Positions 18,847 through 25,113 of a stretch of 64,000 bases of DNA are shown piece by piece. The position numbers and the translations under genes were made by a program. The DNA lies in assembly GCF_030816195.1 (NCBI RefSeq), contig NZ_JAUSXS010000001.1:1511501-1575500 (forward strand), in the 5' to 3' direction. The first letter of the stretch is position 1, and the number at the start of each line of letters is the position of its first letter. The notes under the pieces were generated by a model. The model was not told the origin of the DNA. It was given only the letters and a program-made list of their open reading frames with translations, and ran no database searches. Source of the DNA: Pseudomonas sp. W4I3 (GTDB lineage: Bacteria > Pseudomonadota > Gammaproteobacteria > Pseudomonadales > Pseudomonadaceae).

Positions 18847-20145
18847 TTAGTGCAGTTTCAGGCGCGGCTCAGTTCCACGTCCAATCTTGCTGCCCAGCAT
18901 CAGCATCGCCGTGCGGAAAACGCCATACAGCGCCATCTGGTGCATGCGGTAAAGCGATACATAAAACATCCGCGCCAACCAACCTTCCAGCATCACACTG
19001 CCGGTCAGGTTGCCCATCAAGTTGCCCACCGCGGAAAAGCGCGACAGCGAGATCAGCGAGCCGTAGTCGGTGTACTTGTAGGCCGGCAGCTCCTTGCCTT
19101 CAATCAGCAGTTTCAGCGACTTGGCGAGCAATGAGGCCTGTTGGTGAGCGGCTTGCGCACGCGGTGGCACATTACGGTCGGTGCCCGGTTGCGGGCAGGC
19201 AGCGCAGTCGCCAAAGGCAAAGATGTTTTCGTCGCGGGTGGTCTGCAGTGTCGGCAGCACCTGCAGTTGGTTGATACGGTTGGTTTCCAGGCCGTCGATG
19301 TCCTTGAGAAAGCCCGGTGCGCGAATCCCGGCGGCCCACACTTTGAGGCTGGCCGGGATTACCTGTCCGCTGCTGGTGATCAGCGCGTCGGCGGTCACTT
19401 CGCTGACGGCCGAGTTGGTCAGCACCGTCACCCCTAGCTTTTCCAGGGTTTTATGCACAGGCCCGCTGATCCGCTCCGGCAGCGCGGGCAATACCCGTGG
19501 GCCGGCTTCGATCAGGGTGATGTGCATGTTTTCCGGCTTGATACGGTCCAGGCCGTACGCGGCCAACTCGTGGGCAGCGTTATGCAGTTCGGCGGCCAGT
19601 TCCACGCCGGTGGCGCCGGCGCCGACGATGGCGACGCTGATCTGCTCAATCGTGTCGGTTTGCCCGGCGTGGGCGCGCAAGTAATGGTTGAGCAGTTGCT
19701 GATGGAAGCGCTCGGCCTGCTTGCGGGTGTCGAGGAACAGGCAATGCTGCGCCGCGCCCTCGGTGCCGAAATCGTTCGTGGTGCTGCCCACCGCAATCAC
19801 CAGGCTGTCATAGCCCAGCACACGCGCAGGCACCAGTTCGCGGCCTTCTTCATCAAGGGTGGCGGCCAGTTGGATTTTTTTCTGCTCACGGTCGAGTCCG
19901 CTCATACGCCCCAGTTGGAACTCGAAGTGGTTCCATTTCGCCTGGGCGACGTAATTGAGTTCGTCTTCCGAAGAGTTCAGCGAGCCGGCCGCTACTTCGT
20001 GCAGCAGCGGTTTCCAGATGTGCGTCAGGTTGGCGTCCACCAGCGTGATGCTGGCTTTGCCGCGTTTGCCCAGGGTCTTACCCAGGCGGGTCGCTAGCTC
20101 CAGACCGCCGGCACCGCCGCCGACGACAATAATACGATGGGTCAT
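18847..20145 (-). CDS. ndh: type II NADH:quinone oxidoreductase
   Basis: Non-proton-pumping membrane-associated flavoprotein that passes electrons from NADH to quinone. Two Rossmann motifs are seen: FAD site VVGGGAGGLELATRLG (residue 7) and NADH site IVGAGATGVELAAEL (near 175); FAFGDCAACP near 310 is the conserved FAD-binding block, and the C-terminal part has the amphipathic membrane-binding segment. Start at MTHRIIVV (432 aa); five extra codons exist upstream. Confidence 0.93.
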   Translation of the reverse strand: MTHRIIVVGGGAGGLELATRLGKTLGKRGKASITLVDANLTHIWKPLLHEVAAGSLNSSEDELNYVAQAKWNHFEFQLGRMSGLDREQKKIQLAATLDEEGRELVPARVLGYDSLVIAVGSTTNDFGTEGAAQHCLFLDTRKQAERFHQQLLNHYLRAHAGQTDTIEQISVAIVGAGATGVELAAELHNAAHELAAYGLDRIKPENMHITLIEAGPRVLPALPERISGPVHKTLEKLGVTVLTNSAVSEVTADALITSSGQVIPASLKVWAAGIRAPGFLKDIDGLETNRINQLQVLPTLQTTRDENIFAFGDCAACPQPGTDRNVPPRAQAAHQQASLLAKSLKLLIEGKELPAYKYTDYGSLISLSRFSAVGNLMGNLTGSVMLEGWLARMFYVSLYRMHQMALYGVFRTAMLMLGSKIGRGTEPRLKLH

Positions 20146-20205
20146 GGGAGTATCTCGCAAGGCTAAAAGAAATCGGAGCAGTTACCCCCGCGAGCGCCAG
20201 GCAGC

Positions 20206-20379
20206 TCATAGCGTCAGGTAACTCAAAAGGCGGCTCAGCAGACCGAGCCCGATCACCACCACCAGCACCACACCCAGGAGCAGCCACGGCCTGAAAGGCT
20301 TGCGCTCGACTTTGTGTTGGGAGAGTTGCAGATACTCTTCGACATGCTGTTGGTCATCGGGGTTCAGGCGGCTGGTCAT
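20206..20379 (-). CDS. DUF3094 small membrane protein
   Basis: 57 residues: a hydrophilic N-terminus (TSRLNPDDQQHVEEYLQL) and one C-terminal transmembrane helix (LLLGVVLVVVIGLGLLS). It matches my memory of the DUF3094 family found in pseudomonads. No function known. Lies between ndh and the DUF1780 gene in the same direction. Confidence 0.75.
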   Translation of the reverse strand: MTSRLNPDDQQHVEEYLQLSQHKVERKPFRPWLLLGVVLVVVIGLGLLSRLLSYLTL

Positions 20380-20431
20380 AAAGGCCTCGTCAGGTAGACG
20401 TTGCAAAAGGGCGCCACGTTACAGCCGGGCA

Positions 20432-21061
20432 TCAAAGGCTGATGCCCACATCGAACACTATGCTGCGGCCCAGGTTGTTGCGCAAGAAATCCGGCGCGTC
20501 CGGGTGTGCGAACAGTACCCGCGCAAAGGTTGGCCCCACCAGCGACAGGGAGCGCCAGCCCTGGCGCAGATATTCGGTGGGCGGCGGAAAATGGCTGTTG
20601 AGGTCCAGCACTTCGCGCTTGAGGCTGGTAAAGGCGATGAGGTCCAATTCCCCCAGATCTATTCCGCGTTCTTTGTAGTTATGCGCTTTTTTGCGCAGTG
20701 TCGGTGCCAGGCGCAACAGAAACTCATGGGCGGGAATGCGCCTTGGCTTGGCTTCGCGTCGCACCAGTTGGCTCAGGGAGAAGGCGCTGCGCCTGCGCAG
20801 CAGTTCGTCGCGCCATTCGTCGTTCAGTCGACGGCCTTCGTCCAAGACAAAGAACACTTCAAAACTGGCGTCGCGAAACAGCACGTCGGGCGGTTCCTGG
20901 CCGGCGGCGTGGAACTCCTCGGCGCGATAGGGCACGTTCAAGCCTTGCAACAGGCGCTGGCAGACCCAACGCTCACGCTCCCATTTGCGGGCATTGGACA
21001 GGAATGCGTTGGCTTGTTCGGCCGCTACGGTGAGCAGGCGCAAATAATCTGAGTCATCCAT
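20432..21061 (-). CDS. DUF1780 protein
   Basis: Soluble 209-residue protein, rich in charged residues, resembling the DUF1780 family (putative nuclease-like fold by published structure, as I recall). The block ERERWVCQRLLQGLNVPY near residue 28 and ARVLFAHPDAPDFLRNNLGR near the C-terminus are the most conserved-looking parts. It is divergent from the CbiM-like gene, sharing a 200-nt intergenic region. Confidence 0.75.
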   Translation of the reverse strand: MDDSDYLRLLTVAAEQANAFLSNARKWERERWVCQRLLQGLNVPYRAEEFHAAGQEPPDVLFRDASFEVFFVLDEGRRLNDEWRDELLRRRSAFSLSQLVRREAKPRRIPAHEFLLRLAPTLRKKAHNYKERGIDLGELDLIAFTSLKREVLDLNSHFPPPTEYLRQGWRSLSLVGPTFARVLFAHPDAPDFLRNNLGRSIVFDVGISL

Positions 21062-21088
21062 AGGCGTAGCTTAGCGTTCAAATGATGA

Positions 21089-21235
21089 CCGCAGGAAGAC
21101 TTGCTGCGGTTCCAGCCTTGCAACAGGCTACGCTGCAACTTGGACCTTGGCGATGTAGTCTCCAGTATCCACCAGCGACTCCGGGAACGAGGCGTTTATG
21201 TACAGAATCAACGCAACCAGCCCCATCACGGGCTG
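21089..21235 (+). promoter_or_regulatory. hairpin-rich leader of the CbiM-like gene
   Basis: Three perfect hairpins in succession: CCGCAG / CTGCGG (21089-21109), AGCCT / AGGCT (21114-21129) and CAGCCC / GGGCTG (21218-21235), the last inside a 21-codon ORF. No known riboswitch consensus recognised: I see no cobalamin-box or NiCo motif. May be a regulatory leader; function not shown. Confidence 0.35.
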
Positions 21236-21263
21236 CGAGGCGGCGAGGCAGGTGAAGCGGTGA
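21198..21263 (+). CDS. possible 21-residue leader peptide
   Basis: ATG with a GAGG ribosome-binding site 5 nt upstream, 21 codons (MYRINATSPITGCEAARQVKR), TGA overlapping a GTG start of the next frame (GTGA at 21260). The arrangement suggests translational coupling to the membrane-protein gene. No homolog known to me; could be chance. Confidence 0.35.
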   Translation: MYRINATSPITGCEAARQVKR

Positions 21264-21277
21264 TCGGCGCGCAGGTC

Positions 21278-21949
21278 ATGACATCACCCACCCTGGGCAC
21301 CGGCTGGCTGTTGTACGTCCCCGTGCTGGTGTGGGCGATCTTGCGCGCGCCCTGGGTCGAGTTGTTTGCCGACCGACGGCGCCAGCATTTGCTGTTCGGC
21401 ACGGTGTTCGCGCTGTTCATGTTGTGGCTGGTGCGGCGGGATTTCGACACAGGGGTGTCTTACCATTTTATCGGCATGACCGCGGTGACCCTGCTGCTGG
21501 ACTGGCCGCTGGCAATCGTCGGTGGGTTTGCCGCGCAGTGCGGGTTGGTTTGGCTGGGGCGCCAGGACCTTGCTGCTGTGGGCGTCAACGGGTTGTTGTT
21601 GATCGTGCTGCCGGTGTTGGTAACCGAGACCTGCGCGGTACTGGTAGAACGGGCGCAGCCGCGCAACCCCTTCGTGTACATCTTCTGTTCCGGTTTTTTT
21701 GCTGCCGCTTTGTCGGCGTTACTGTGCCTGCTGGCCGGCCTGGGGCTGCTGTGGTTCGATGGGCGATTCGCGATGCCGGAATGGCTCGAGGACTTCGTAG
21801 GCTACCTATGGCTGATCATCTTTCCCGAAGCGTTTATCAACGGCATGGTGATCAGTGCCCTGGTGGTGTTCTGCCCGGAATGGCTGGAGACGTTCAACCG
21901 CACCCGCTACCTTTCGGCACCGTGGAAGGACGACGATTCGCAGCGTTGA
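21278..21949 (+). CDS. CbiM-like energy-coupling-factor permease family membrane protein
   Basis: About 223 residues with 6-7 hydrophobic segments and no soluble domain. It resembles proteins annotated in Pseudomonas as ECF transporter permease (CbiM-like), but the usual CbiM N-terminal His motif is not visible and no ECF ATPase or T-component is nearby, so substrate and mechanism are unknown. ATG 21278 is used; GTG 21260, which overlaps the stop of a small upstream ORF, is an attractive alternative that would add six residues. Confidence 0.7.
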   Translation: MTSPTLGTGWLLYVPVLVWAILRAPWVELFADRRRQHLLFGTVFALFMLWLVRRDFDTGVSYHFIGMTAVTLLLDWPLAIVGGFAAQCGLVWLGRQDLAAVGVNGLLLIVLPVLVTETCAVLVERAQPRNPFVYIFCSGFFAAALSALLCLLAGLGLLWFDGRFAMPEWLEDFVGYLWLIIFPEAFINGMVISALVVFCPEWLETFNRTRYLSAPWKDDDSQR

Positions 21950-22012
21950 TCCAGGTCAAAAAGCGGATGACCCCACAGGCCCATGCTCTGCGAAATTTCA
22001 GGAGCGTGAATC

Positions 22013-22228
22013 ATGAGTGTGTACGAATGGGCACGGCAGGAACTGCGCAGAAGCCAGGATGCAGCACAGGAAATCGGTTTTGATCCAGGCTTGACCCTGC
22101 GCGCCATGCTCAGCGCGGTGGTGCAGCAGAGCAAGGGTGTGCGCAGCTTTGAAGACTTGGCCGACGAGTTGCAATACCTTGCGGAAAACCTCGACGACCA
22201 GCAGGAGTACGCCTTTATGCGGCCTTAG
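22013..22228 (+). CDS. conserved hypothetical protein (71 aa)
   Basis: Small soluble, acidic protein ([22 protein letters not shown]...). It has a good ribosome-binding site (CAGGAG, 8 nt before ATG). No recognised domain; predicted mostly helical. It converges on yacG with a 4-nt overlap, and a similar small protein is, I believe, found at this place in other pseudomonads. Confidence 0.7.
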
Positions 22229-22425
22229 TGGCGCGGCGTCAGGTCTTCGGAAAACAACTCATCTTCGGCATCCGGCGCTACTGGGATTTTGTGCTCTTCA
22301 GCGGCCCAGGCGCCCAGGTCGATGAGTTTGCAACGGTCCGAGCAGAACGGCCGGTTGAGGTTGTCGGGTTTCCATTCCACGGGGGCGCCGCAGGTTGGGC
22401 AATCGACTGTCAAGGGTTGGCTCAT
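22225..22425 (-). CDS. yacG: DNA gyrase inhibitor / zinc-ribbon protein YacG
   Basis: 66-residue zinc protein; CPTCG (residues 9-13) and FCSDRCK (27-33) supply the four Cys ligands, followed by an acidic, disordered C-terminus. E. coli YacG binds GyrB and blocks DNA binding. The ATG overlaps the coaE stop by 4 nt; the order pilD-coaE-yacG is conserved with P. aeruginosa. Confidence 0.93.
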
Positions 22426-23045
22426 GTTCGGCCTCCACGCAAAGTAAGGTAAAAGTGGTGCAGTCGCTCGACCTCGCCGTGCAGCCAGGCAAGGTCCTGG
22501 TCATTGACCAGTACGTCATCGGCATGGTTCAGGCGGTCTTCGCGGCTCGACTGGGCCTTGAGAATGGCCTGTACCTGTTGCTCGCTGATGCCGTCGCGCT
22601 GCAGGGTACGCTGAATCTGCAGCGATTGGGGCACATCGATCACCAGGATGCGCTGGGTCATGCTGTACTGGCCGGACTCGATCAGCAGCGGTGACACCAG
22701 AATCGCGTAAGGCGACCGGGCGCGTGCCAGGTGGTCGCGAATCTCTTCAGCGATCAGCGGGTGCAACAAGCCTTCCAGCCAGAGACGTTCCTGCGGTACT
22801 TCAAAGATCAATTTGCGCAACGCGGCGCGGTCGAGCTGACCGTCCGGCTGCAGCACGCCGTTGCCGAAATGTTCGGCAATGCGCGCCAGCGCCGGTCGGC
22901 CGGGCTCAACCACCCAACGAGCGGCATGATCGGCGTCGACCAGGTCGACACCCAGTCGGGTGAAGTGCTCGGCCGCAGCGCTTTTACCGCTGCCGATGCC
23001 GCCTGTGAGGCCTAGAATCCAGGGTGTTGCAACAGGAGTGGTCAT
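22422..23045 (-). CDS. coaE: dephospho-CoA kinase
   Basis: Final step of coenzyme A synthesis, phosphorylating the 3'-OH of dephospho-CoA. P-loop [11 protein letters not shown] at residue 12, [13 protein letters not shown] lid region, and the [16 protein letters not shown] segment identify it. 207 residues from MTTPVATPW, which overlaps the pilD stop; a long upstream open frame to 23573 is antisense-free but only overlaps pilD and is not part of the gene. Confidence 0.95.
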
Positions 23046-23908
23046 CTGAAACCAACAGACTGCAAATAGAAGTCGGTTATTTGACCACCCCAGAGCAATG
23101 CAATCCAGCCGGCAATTGCCAGGCAGGGCCCAAATGGCATCGGTGTGGACACTCGCGTCTTGCGCCAGCGCATCAGCAGCAGACCAGCGAACACCCCGAG
23201 CAGTGACGCCATCAGCAGCGTCAACGGCAGTATCTGCCAGCCACCCCAGGCGCCTAGCAACGCCAAAAGCTTGAAGTCGCCATGGCCCATGCCATCCTTG
23301 CCGGTGATTAGCTTGAACAGCCAGAACACGCTCCACAGGCTCATGTAGCCAGATACCGCGCCCCATAACGCCTCGGGCAATGTCACCAGCAGGCCCATGC
23401 TGTTGACGATAAGCCCCAGCCATAAGAGCGGCAGCACGATGACATCCGGCAGCAGCTGGTGGTCCACATCGATCAGGCTCATGCCCAGCAACCCGCAACT
23501 GAGCAGCATCACCGCGCCCGCCTGCCAGCTGAAACCGAAGTGCCAGGCGACAGTGGCGCAAATCAGCGCACATGCCAGTTCGGTGACGGGGTAACGCGCG
23601 CCGATGGTTTCATGGCAATGGGCGCAACGCCCCCTGAGCATCAGGTAGCTAAGCAGGGGAATGTTTTCCCAGGGGCGAATCTGCTGGTCGCAGCGTGGGC
23701 AGCGGGAAGCGGGGCGCATCAGGTTGTACACCGGCCCCGCTGGCTCTGCGGGCAGGTCGAGGATCTCATGGGCCTGGGCGCGCCATTCGCGCTCGAGCAT
23801 TTTGGGCAGGCGCCACACCAGCACATTCAGAAAACTGCCAACGATCAGGCCCAGCACCAGCGCCAGGCCAATAAACGCCCAGGGTTGCTCACCCAGCAAC
23901 GCGATCAA
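23042..23908 (-). CDS. pilD: prepilin peptidase / N-methyltransferase PilD
   Basis: Inner-membrane bifunctional aspartyl protease that cleaves prepilin leaders and methylates the new N-terminus; also serves type II secretion pseudopilins. N-terminal methylase domain carries the zinc motif CPRC ... CAHC (about residues 70-97); catalytic Asp residues lie in [12 protein letters not shown] and GMGHGDFK. 288 residues, about 7-8 membrane segments. Overlaps pilC by 4 nt. Confidence 0.95.
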
Positions 23909-25113
23909 AATGCGGCGCCTAGTTGAAACACCGGCAGGTACATGGCAATCACCAGTGCACCGACGATGCTCCCCAGTACGACCATGATCAGCGGCTCCAT
24001 GAGACTGGTGAGGTTATCGACGAGGGTCTCTACGTCAGCCTCGTAATGGTTCGCGACCTTTTCCAGCATGTGCTCCAGCGTGCCGGACTCTTCGCCGATC
24101 GCCGTCATCTGGATCGCCATGCCTGGAAACAGTCCGCTGCTGGCCATGGACTGATTCAACTGCATGCCTGTGGATACATCGTGGCGCATATGTTCGATTG
24201 CCTGTCTGAAAGGGCCATTTCCGACGGCGCCGGCCACTGAGCCCAGTGCCTGCACCAGGGGAACACCTGCCGCAAATGTGGTTGAAAGCGTGCGGGCGAA
24301 GCGGGCGACGGCAGCTTTATTCGACAGTTTGCCTGCCAGGGGGACTTTCAACAAACCCGCCTCCAGAGCATGGCGAAAACCAGGCGAAACACGGTAGGCA
24401 TGACGCAGCCCGCCTATTCCCGCACCCAGGCTCAGCGCCAGCACCCACCAGGCGCGTTGCAGGAAGTCGGAGAGGGCGATGACTCCCAAGGTAAAGCCGG
24501 GCAATTGGCTGCCGACCCCGGCGAACAGGGTCTGGAACTGCGGCACCACATGCATCAGTAACACTGCGCTGACCAGGCTGGCCACCACCAGCACTGCGAT
24601 AGGGTAAGTCATGGCTTTCTTGATTCTGGTCTTGAGCCGTTGGCTTTTTTCCAGGTGAATGGCCACTCGCTCCAGCAGTGTTTCCAGGGCGCCAGCCTGT
24701 TCACCCGCGGCGATCAGGTTGCAGTAAAGGTCATCGAAATAACGGGGGAACTGGCGCAGCGTGCTGGCCAGGCTATTGCCGCTGGCGACGTGTTGTTTCA
24801 AGCCCTTGATCAGCTCACGCAGTTGCCGGTTTTCGACACCCTCGCCGATGATATCGAAGGCTTGCAGCAGCGGGATGCCCGCTTTCAACAGCGTCGCCAA
24901 CTGGCGAGTGAAAAGGGCAATGTCAGCGGGCTGTATCGGTGGAACCAGACTTGGCAGGCCTGACGATTTCTTGCGCACACGCTCGGGGCAGATCCCTTGC
25001 TGGCGCAGTTGTGCCTTGACCCGTGCAAGGTCATGCCCCGTGGTTTGCCCGCACACCCTGCGGCCTTTGCGGTTGATGCCTTGCCAGGTATAGATCGTTG
25101 AGGTGTCGTTCAT
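23905..25113 (-). CDS. pilC: type IV pilus inner-membrane platform protein PilC
   Basis: Polytopic platform protein of the pilus assembly machine. Two GspF/T2SF domains (about residues 65-190 and 270-390), with LATLLKAGIPLLQAFD and the equivalent STTFAAGVPLVQALG in the repeats, and three main membrane segments. 402 residues, normal. In P. aeruginosa pilB, the extension ATPase, lies between pilA and pilC; here pilC starts 198 nt from pilA with no room for it. Confidence 0.94.
   Translation of the reverse strand: MNDTSTIYTWQGINRKGRRVCGQTTGHDLARVKAQLRQQGICPERVRKKSSGLPSLVPPIQPADIALFTRQLATLLKAGIPLLQAFDIIGEGVENRQLRELIKGLKQHVASGNSLASTLRQFPRYFDDLYCNLIAAGEQAGALETLLERVAIHLEKSQRLKTRIKKAMTYPIAVLVVASLVSAVLLMHVVPQFQTLFAGVGSQLPGFTLGVIALSDFLQRAWWVLALSLGAGIGGLRHAYRVSPGFRHALEAGLLKVPLAGKLSNKAAVARFARTLSTTFAAGVPLVQALGSVAGAVGNGPFRQAIEHMRHDVSTGMQLNQSMASSGLFPGMAIQMTAIGEESGTLEHMLEKVANHYEADVETLVDNLTSLMEPLIMVVLGSIVGALVIAMYLPVFQLGAAF

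Follow-up and report, generated by a model that had tools for sequence, protein, structure and literature searches.

A short open reading frame ahead of a solitary CbiM-like gene in Pseudomonas may be the in-frame stub of an eroded, translationally coupled gene

Introduction

What purpose could a 21-codon open reading frame (ORF) serve when its stop codon overlaps the start of a gene for a CbiM-like membrane protein? The question is raised by a stretch of 216 nt (21062-21277) in the window, that is, the 64,000 nt of Pseudomonas sp. W4I3 DNA analysed here as a whole, carried on a 6.05-Mb chromosome represented by a single contig (genome label G000). The stretch sits between a divergent DUF1780 gene and the CbiM-like gene (hereafter cbiM). 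A sequence-only reading had described it as a structured leader with three perfect hairpins in 150 nt and a small coupled ORF, and had suggested that a leader peptide, or the sensing of a metal or cofactor, controls an ECF-like transporter.

We compared the region with 246 loci holding 198 distinct cbiM sequences (loci, not genomes). The 80 named loci are the best 80 of 392 confirmed relatives, and 100 further stretches were picked by hand from among the listed matches of 346 genomes; the sample is skewed to close relatives. Relatives in the named genome collection are nearly all Pseudomonas, P. orientalis (L092) and P. lurida (L119) are among the named loci that match the region best, and we would place the source strain near the P. 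fluorescens group.

Results

The small ORF overlaps the start of a solitary CbiM-like gene

The two genes, the ORF and their ribosome sites are arranged as follows:

20432-21061, minus strand: DUF1780 gene, the divergent neighbour (Pfam PF08682, 385 bits)
21068-21075, minus strand: AGCTTAGC, adjoining the DUF1780 start and nearly invariant in an alignment of 95 left flanks
21189-21192, plus strand: Shine-Dalgarno sequence of the mini-ORF, GAGG, 5 nt before its ATG (duplex energy -5.9 kcal/mol)
21198-21263, plus strand: 21-codon mini-ORF with its stop overlapping the next start, seen in the sequence and in comparison with relatives; a putative relic of a gene here called 'trx'
21250-21255, plus strand: AGGTGA, the Shine-Dalgarno sequence of cbiM itself, in the tail of the mini-ORF (-13.9 kcal/mol)
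21260-21949, plus strand: gene for a solitary CbiM-like membrane protein, start GTG 21260 (Pfam PF01891, 54.1 bits against a cut-off of 23.1)

The mini-ORF runs from ATG 21198 to TGA 21261-21263 and encodes MYRINATSPITGCEAARQVKR. It has a ribosome site and a start of its own, and its TGA overlaps GTG 21260 (GTGA), a start in the reading frame of the membrane protein; the overlap is also found in relatives. The 21 codons, the GAGG at 5 nt, the TGA/GTG overlap and the in-frame start, all of which had been reported from the letters alone, were confirmed from the sequence.

The downstream gene comprises 229 codons to 21946, with its stop extending to 21949. The form [AGT]TGAT[CT] occupies the place of the cbiM start in 246 of 248 loci, the two exceptions (L021 and L022) coming from other genera, and we therefore take GTG 21260, rather than ATG 21278, to be the true start; the start codons in the 246 loci are 126 ATG, 119 GTG and 1 TTG. 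DUF1780 and the cbiM-like gene were on one retrieved stretch in 17 of the 23 loci examined in this respect.

The protein resembles the CbiM/NikM S-components of ECF metal transporters in its match to PF01891 but differs from them in several respects. Read from GTG 21260, it begins MIGAQVMTSP, with MIGAQV in place of MHIPDG, the N-terminal metal-site motif of CbiM/NikM S-components, and it misses the NCBIfam cut-offs for the cobalt transporter CbiM by far (19.6 of 200 and 17.7 of 173 bits). Furthermore, no match to PF02361 (EcfT/CbiQ) was found in the genome of the window, the control being positive in 10 of 14 genomes, which makes the proposed ECF-like transporter doubtful. A search of solved structures by sequence returned none for this protein at E up to 1. 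The portions of a paper that treat solitary S-components (PMC11109136) do not cover it, and it would best be named a solitary CbiM-like protein.

Among 398 genomes of the genus, 52 (including G001, G003, G018, G020 and G023) gave no match to the CbiM-like protein. A stop inside cbiM was found in the loci of only two genomes among the 246 loci, namely an internal TAG at codon 102 in G189 (L028) and a frame break behind a short leader in G017 (L020/L023). Two partial (split) cbiM matches each were seen in G136 and G333, so broken cbiM may be commoner than in the sample.

The hairpins are not conserved, and most lie upstream of a -10-like element

Four exact stems and a candidate promoter element were mapped in the region:

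21088-21110, no strand assigned: stem A, 7 bp, upstream of the -10-like element; its left arm is widely shared, its pairing is not
21112-21138, no strand assigned: stems B (21114-21129) and C (21118-21138), 5 bp each, overlapping and mutually exclusive
21152-21161, plus strand: -10-like element GATGTAGTCT, which reads GATGTAGACT in three relatives with a 21-codon ORF; wider consensus cGGTGTAGACTg
21218-21235, plus strand: stem D, 6 bp, within the mini-ORF, not conserved

The exact stems that had been reported are thus present, but B and C exclude each other and the number of stems is not beyond chance. At least three exact stems of at least 5 bp occur in 25% of the 150-nt stretches of the window; positions 21062-21211 hold 3, against a window mean of 1.74, and 1 stem of at least 6 bp, against a mean of 0.48, a value reached by 39% of stretches. 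Relative to shuffled sequences, the fold z was -0.41 for 21062-21212 and -0.22 for 21168-21277, the likely transcript part, with +1.21 for the relative L054.

When homologous sequences were aligned, the pairing was lost. All 7 pairs of stem A are retained in 2 of 95 rows of the DUF1780-side flank, distant rows included; its left arm and AGCTTAGC are widely shared, which would fit the promoter of the divergent gene better than a hairpin, and AGCTTAGC is likely part of that promoter. For stem D, 13 of 24 cells (54.2%) are paired in four aligned leaders, without any two-sided change, and 471 of 500 shuffles score as high; slid by one column, the same stem reaches 70.8% paired cells and 2 pairs that change on both sides, a higher score. 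In the RNAalifold fold of the four leaders, 3 pairs change on both sides and the covariation term is just -0.94; a weak structure in the leader is possible, four sequences being few. No Rfam family reached its gathering score in the region, and at E up to 10 there were just two matches, to families other than riboswitches and far below threshold. No terminator-like site was found on the plus strand within 21062-21277.

The motif TGTA[GA]ACT lies upstream of cbiM or trx in 119 loci. Since this core was used to find the element, the evidence lies in its flanks only, where, of 103 distinct contexts, 102 and 99 have G, 85 have C and 86 have G. There is no conservation at -35 among these contexts, and a consensus promoter scan of 19000-25000 found none. 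In the window, the element is changed at one core base (TAGTCT), and the exact 12-mer of the cGGTGTAGACTg element has no match in the genome. Many other loci, such as L002, carry a conserved cGGTGTAGACTg ahead of cbiM or trx. The mRNA would begin just after this candidate element; if it is a -10 element, stems A-C are outside the mRNA, and the hairpins appear to be ordinary DNA.

These results bear directly on the proposal that a riboswitch or a leader peptide senses a metal, B12 or another cofactor. Its position ahead of a CbiM-like gene and the existence of exact stems speak for such a sensor. However, the region contains neither a described riboswitch family nor a conserved covarying structure, it folds like shuffled sequence, three of the four stems are upstream of the -10-like element, and the genome has no CbiQ match. 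An attenuating leader peptide is equally at odds with an ORF that overlaps the gene start, with the lack of a terminator-like site on the plus strand and with a peptide that drifts (see below), as the want of peptide conservation counts against a peptide-sensing leader. We consider sensing highly improbable, and a structured leader is not supported.

A longer gene occupies the equivalent place in relatives

In 72 of the 246 loci (54 of the 198 distinct cbiM sequences), cbiM is preceded by trx, a gene of 155 codons, and in all 72 the trx TGA overlaps the cbiM start at the identical offset, one base into the start. Thus, trx stands in the equivalent place in relatives and is absent here. A search for it in the genome of the window was blank as well; without a positive genome, such a blank alone shows nothing.

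The trx protein has no match at E up to 1 in Pfam or NCBIfam. Its AlphaFold model is of moderate confidence (pLDDT 72.7, pTM 0.69), and the structural matches of this predicted model are mostly to thioredoxin-fold proteins (ResA, peroxiredoxins), at TM of about 0.5-0.6; the name therefore denotes the fold only. No Cys is invariant among 15 aligned trx proteins. The N-terminus looks by eye like a signal peptide, and the product is probably exported.

On a quick tree of the 198 cbiM genes, the presence of trx changes at least 24 times, and a midpoint-rooted count on the same tree gives 41 maximal trx-less clades; gene-tree error inflates both numbers, the 41 more.

Leaders without trx keep the frame to the overlapping stop

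Setting aside 11 loci without a recognised -10-like element, we counted 132 distinct trx-less leaders with the element, of which 69 are short (<56 nt) and 63 longer. Starts in the long leaders were assigned by two rules, both blind to frame. The homology rule, which seeks the old trx start, picked the right start in 68 of the 72 trx-carrying controls and a wrong one in 0, leaving 4 unpicked; in the 63 long leaders, it gave 44 starts that are in frame and open and 1 that is not, with 18 unpicked, the type of the window among them. Rule 1, for mini-ORF starts, gave 47 of 54 in frame and open. In six of its seven misses (L053, L031, L166, L181, L134 and L037), the homology-rule start is located a few bases on and is in frame, whereas L028 is the sole leader out of frame by both rules. 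Taken together, the rules give a start in 54 distinct long trx-less leaders; in 53 of them it is in frame with the overlapping TGA, and all 53 are open. Neither rule gave a start in the other 9 of the 63 (L088, L118, L235, L005, L190, L231, L207, L006 and L010). The length before the start, an internal control, keeps no frame: taken modulo 3, it was distributed 34/6/14 in the same 54 leaders (lengths 30-50; kinship left in).

When the leaders are collapsed into ORF-length classes, whose independence as events is unproven, 15 are in frame and 1 is out (binomial P = 7.7e-7); minus the two alternative-start classes (6 and 14 codons, within the 8- and 10-codon groups), the count is 13 versus 1 (P = 6e-6). 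The scored stubs span 6 to 43 codons, and several are plainly the two ends of trx, for example VKFFAVLLLSLLPVLAQAAELHEALEQVKP in L037. The frame-broken stub, L028, precedes the cbiM of G189 with the internal TAG.

Many of the 69 distinct short leaders, to which the start rules were not applied, are without any in-frame start, and L050 and L065 seem to have lost the start inside a mini-ORF clade. Three-codon candidate stubs, consisting of ATG, one codon, and TTA or similar, followed by the overlapping TGA, were noticed in L005, L190, L231 and L235; they have a ribosome site nearby, fall outside the range of both rules and were left uncounted.

The peptides drift while the frame stays open

The ratio pN/pS is 0.76 for the window type (4 sequences), and 1.20 and 0.78 for groups of 16 and 7. 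Parsimony on 7 groups with 40 tips yielded 208 substitutions in stub bodies, among them 0 premature stops against 7.1 expected (P = 8e-4), counts that come from one quick gene tree and from groups chosen, mainly on leader length, with the leaders already known; the test is therefore not fully blind. Start codons changed 4 times, always at the first base, versus about 15 changes expected over any start-codon base, and in the three large groups every stub start is ATG or GTG. Frame, start and stop are thus kept, and the peptides drift.

An open frame could also persist only because the other frames do harm, one fusing the old signal peptide to CbiM and the other running past the cbiM start, with no coupling needed. 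Avoidance of harm would likewise yield in-frame deletions, and it is in line with the commonness of short leaders (69 of 132). Yet an early stop would end the harm, and it is precisely early stops that are missing, and the start codon is retained; moreover, the sole early-stop leader found precedes a broken cbiM. We hold harm avoidance as the only cause to be quite unlikely.

Ribosome-site strengths differ between leader types

For the Shine-Dalgarno sequence of cbiM itself, the median is -8.8 kcal/mol in short leaders (n = 69) and -6.9, a weaker site, in long ones (n = 63; P = 0.003), a difference that would fit coupling. The value in trx-carrying loci (-8.9, n = 52) does not differ from that of short leaders (P = 0.48), which counts against it; the comparison ignores kinship. 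In the 62 leaders with an in-frame start, the site of the stub is stronger on median than that of cbiM (P = 0.014), the stub start having been picked for its best site, which favours the stub. Within the type of the window, the cbiM site is very strong in the window itself and in L054 and L055 (-14.3) and weak in L149 (-3.5), and the mini-ORF site measures -7.9 kcal/mol in L055 and -8.3 in L149. Given the strength of the cbiM site in the window, coupling may matter less there than elsewhere.

The same values are relevant to the possibility that in this strain the mini-ORF is an idle relic and cbiM starts independently from its own AGGTGA, in which case the conservation of the frame in other lineages has no bearing on the window. 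The cbiM site indeed beats the mini-ORF site in the window and in L055, but in L149, which belongs to the same type, the weak site is that of cbiM and the strong one that of the mini-ORF. In addition, the 21-codon length, the start and the stop are held in 4 genomes over 39 inferred substitutions, none of which created a stop, a count of little power as only 0.8 stops were expected. On balance, an idle relic seems unlikely to us.

The 21-codon ORF and the history of the window

Conservation of the ORF was checked among the genomes, and three relatives (G135, G181 and G387) were found to have a 21-codon ORF at the equivalent place. One search gave 3 of 398 genomes, including that of the window, and another gave 2 of 398, the same two relatives; G387 joined the set after a match of its left flank. 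In its first dozen codons the ORF shows nothing recognisable of trx; only the tail resembles it. A search with the L054 leader gave 8 matches in other genomes, 5 of which begin 26 nt ahead of the start of cbiM. Of the genomes with such tail matches, at least three carry trx (G004, G065 and G045). From its position, ribosome site, stop overlap and tail likeness, we infer that the 21-codon ORF descends from the start region and tail of trx.

In each of the three relatives, a block of about 4.8 kb parts the DUF1780 flank from the -10-like element (1560-6300 in L054, and at the matching place in L055 and L149); it is absent from the window. ORFs of the L054 block resemble, by eye, a LysR regulator, an ornithine-cyclodeaminase-like enzyme, an EamA-like permease and a fatty-acid-desaturase-like protein. 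The block is present in every one of the three other holders of the 21-codon ORF that were found, which makes its loss in the line of the window likeliest; it is less likely that it was never present there. The probable junction, placed by eye, is at 21112-21126 or so, at stem B. In eight other loci (L066, L096, L110, L120, L123, L124, L128 and L135), 4.8-5.8 kb lie between DUF1780 and cbiM, so this gap seems prone to insertion.

Two further candidates in the region were dismissed. A minus-strand antisense ORF ending at about 21128 (...ILYINASFPESLVDTGDYIAKVQVAA) has no Pfam match, and its frame and stop are lost in L054, L055 and L149. Foreign DNA at 21110-21240 was ruled out because, from about 21126, the sequence can be aligned with the L054 and L055 leaders.

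Discussion

We consider it probable that the mini-ORF is what remains of an eroded gene, retained as a launcher of translational coupling and not as a metal or cofactor sensor. The ancestral locus would have held, in this order, a promoter, the 155-codon trx and, overlapped at its start by the trx TGA, the cbiM-like gene. Internal deletion would then have removed trx in many Pseudomonas lineages; in those that retained its ribosome site and start, deletions and substitutions would have lasted only if the frame to the overlapping TGA stayed open. Ribosomes ending at this TGA could restart immediately on the cbiM start, and this would be the reason for retention of the frame. The 21-codon ORF of the window would be such a stub, with a peptide that has no function itself; it is presumably translated, and cbiM output would depend on it. 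Against this launcher reading stand the altered -10-like element, the strong cbiM site in the window and the short leaders that often lack a start, and coupling may be weak in the window.

The sequence-only reading was therefore correct in seeing a real small ORF in a coupled layout, and the comparative evidence favours its coupling to the membrane gene, but the structured, metal- or cofactor-sensing setting was misread. A proposed metal-sensing leader is replaced by a different mechanism that can be tested. The loci form a natural deletion series, made many times in one genus, that asks whether the downstream gene needs upstream translation, and they suggest a concrete origin for short leader ORFs without conserved sequence. 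Among the open-access papers listed by literature searches, none was recognised as treating this locus or stubs that gene loss leaves behind for coupling. The chances seem to us slightly in favour of a general route by which leader ORFs are born by erosion: a coupled upstream gene is lost and selection halts the shrinkage once a minimal in-frame launching stub is left (6-43 codons in the scored leaders, perhaps 3), as would have happened repeatedly at one Pseudomonas locus, and part of the unexplained short ORFs in Ribo-seq data may be fossils of coupled genes.

Several known systems resemble the one proposed here. According to the cbrX sections of the P. putida study (PMC6591292), in-frame translation of cbrX is required for CbrA and the sequence of the peptide is unimportant, as judged by lacZ fusions; cbrX has 58 codons and is well conserved in the family. 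It shares with our locus a short ORF, a ribosome site (CGAGG in cbrX) and an end overlapping the next gene. In contrast to cbrX as described there, the ORF here would be what a lost gene left behind, with a drifting sequence and 6 to 43 codons in the scored leaders, and coupling is deduced from sequence comparison. The upstream ORF of iraD in E. coli is likewise, in the account of it in PMC5574718, a short ORF translationally coupled to the downstream gene; CsrA represses through it, a control that is a feature of iraD. A short ORF that brings a ribosome to the gene coupled with it is presented in a 2025 review (PMC12548453), and here too the only job proposed for the short ORF is to drive the next gene; the pages of the review on this subject do not describe such ORFs arising when a coupled gene erodes. 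On this evidence, the small ORF of the window would work like cbrX and like the short ORFs that deliver ribosomes, and what seems new, as far as the literature searches reach, is its origin, in a gene that appears to have eroded many times to an in-frame stub.
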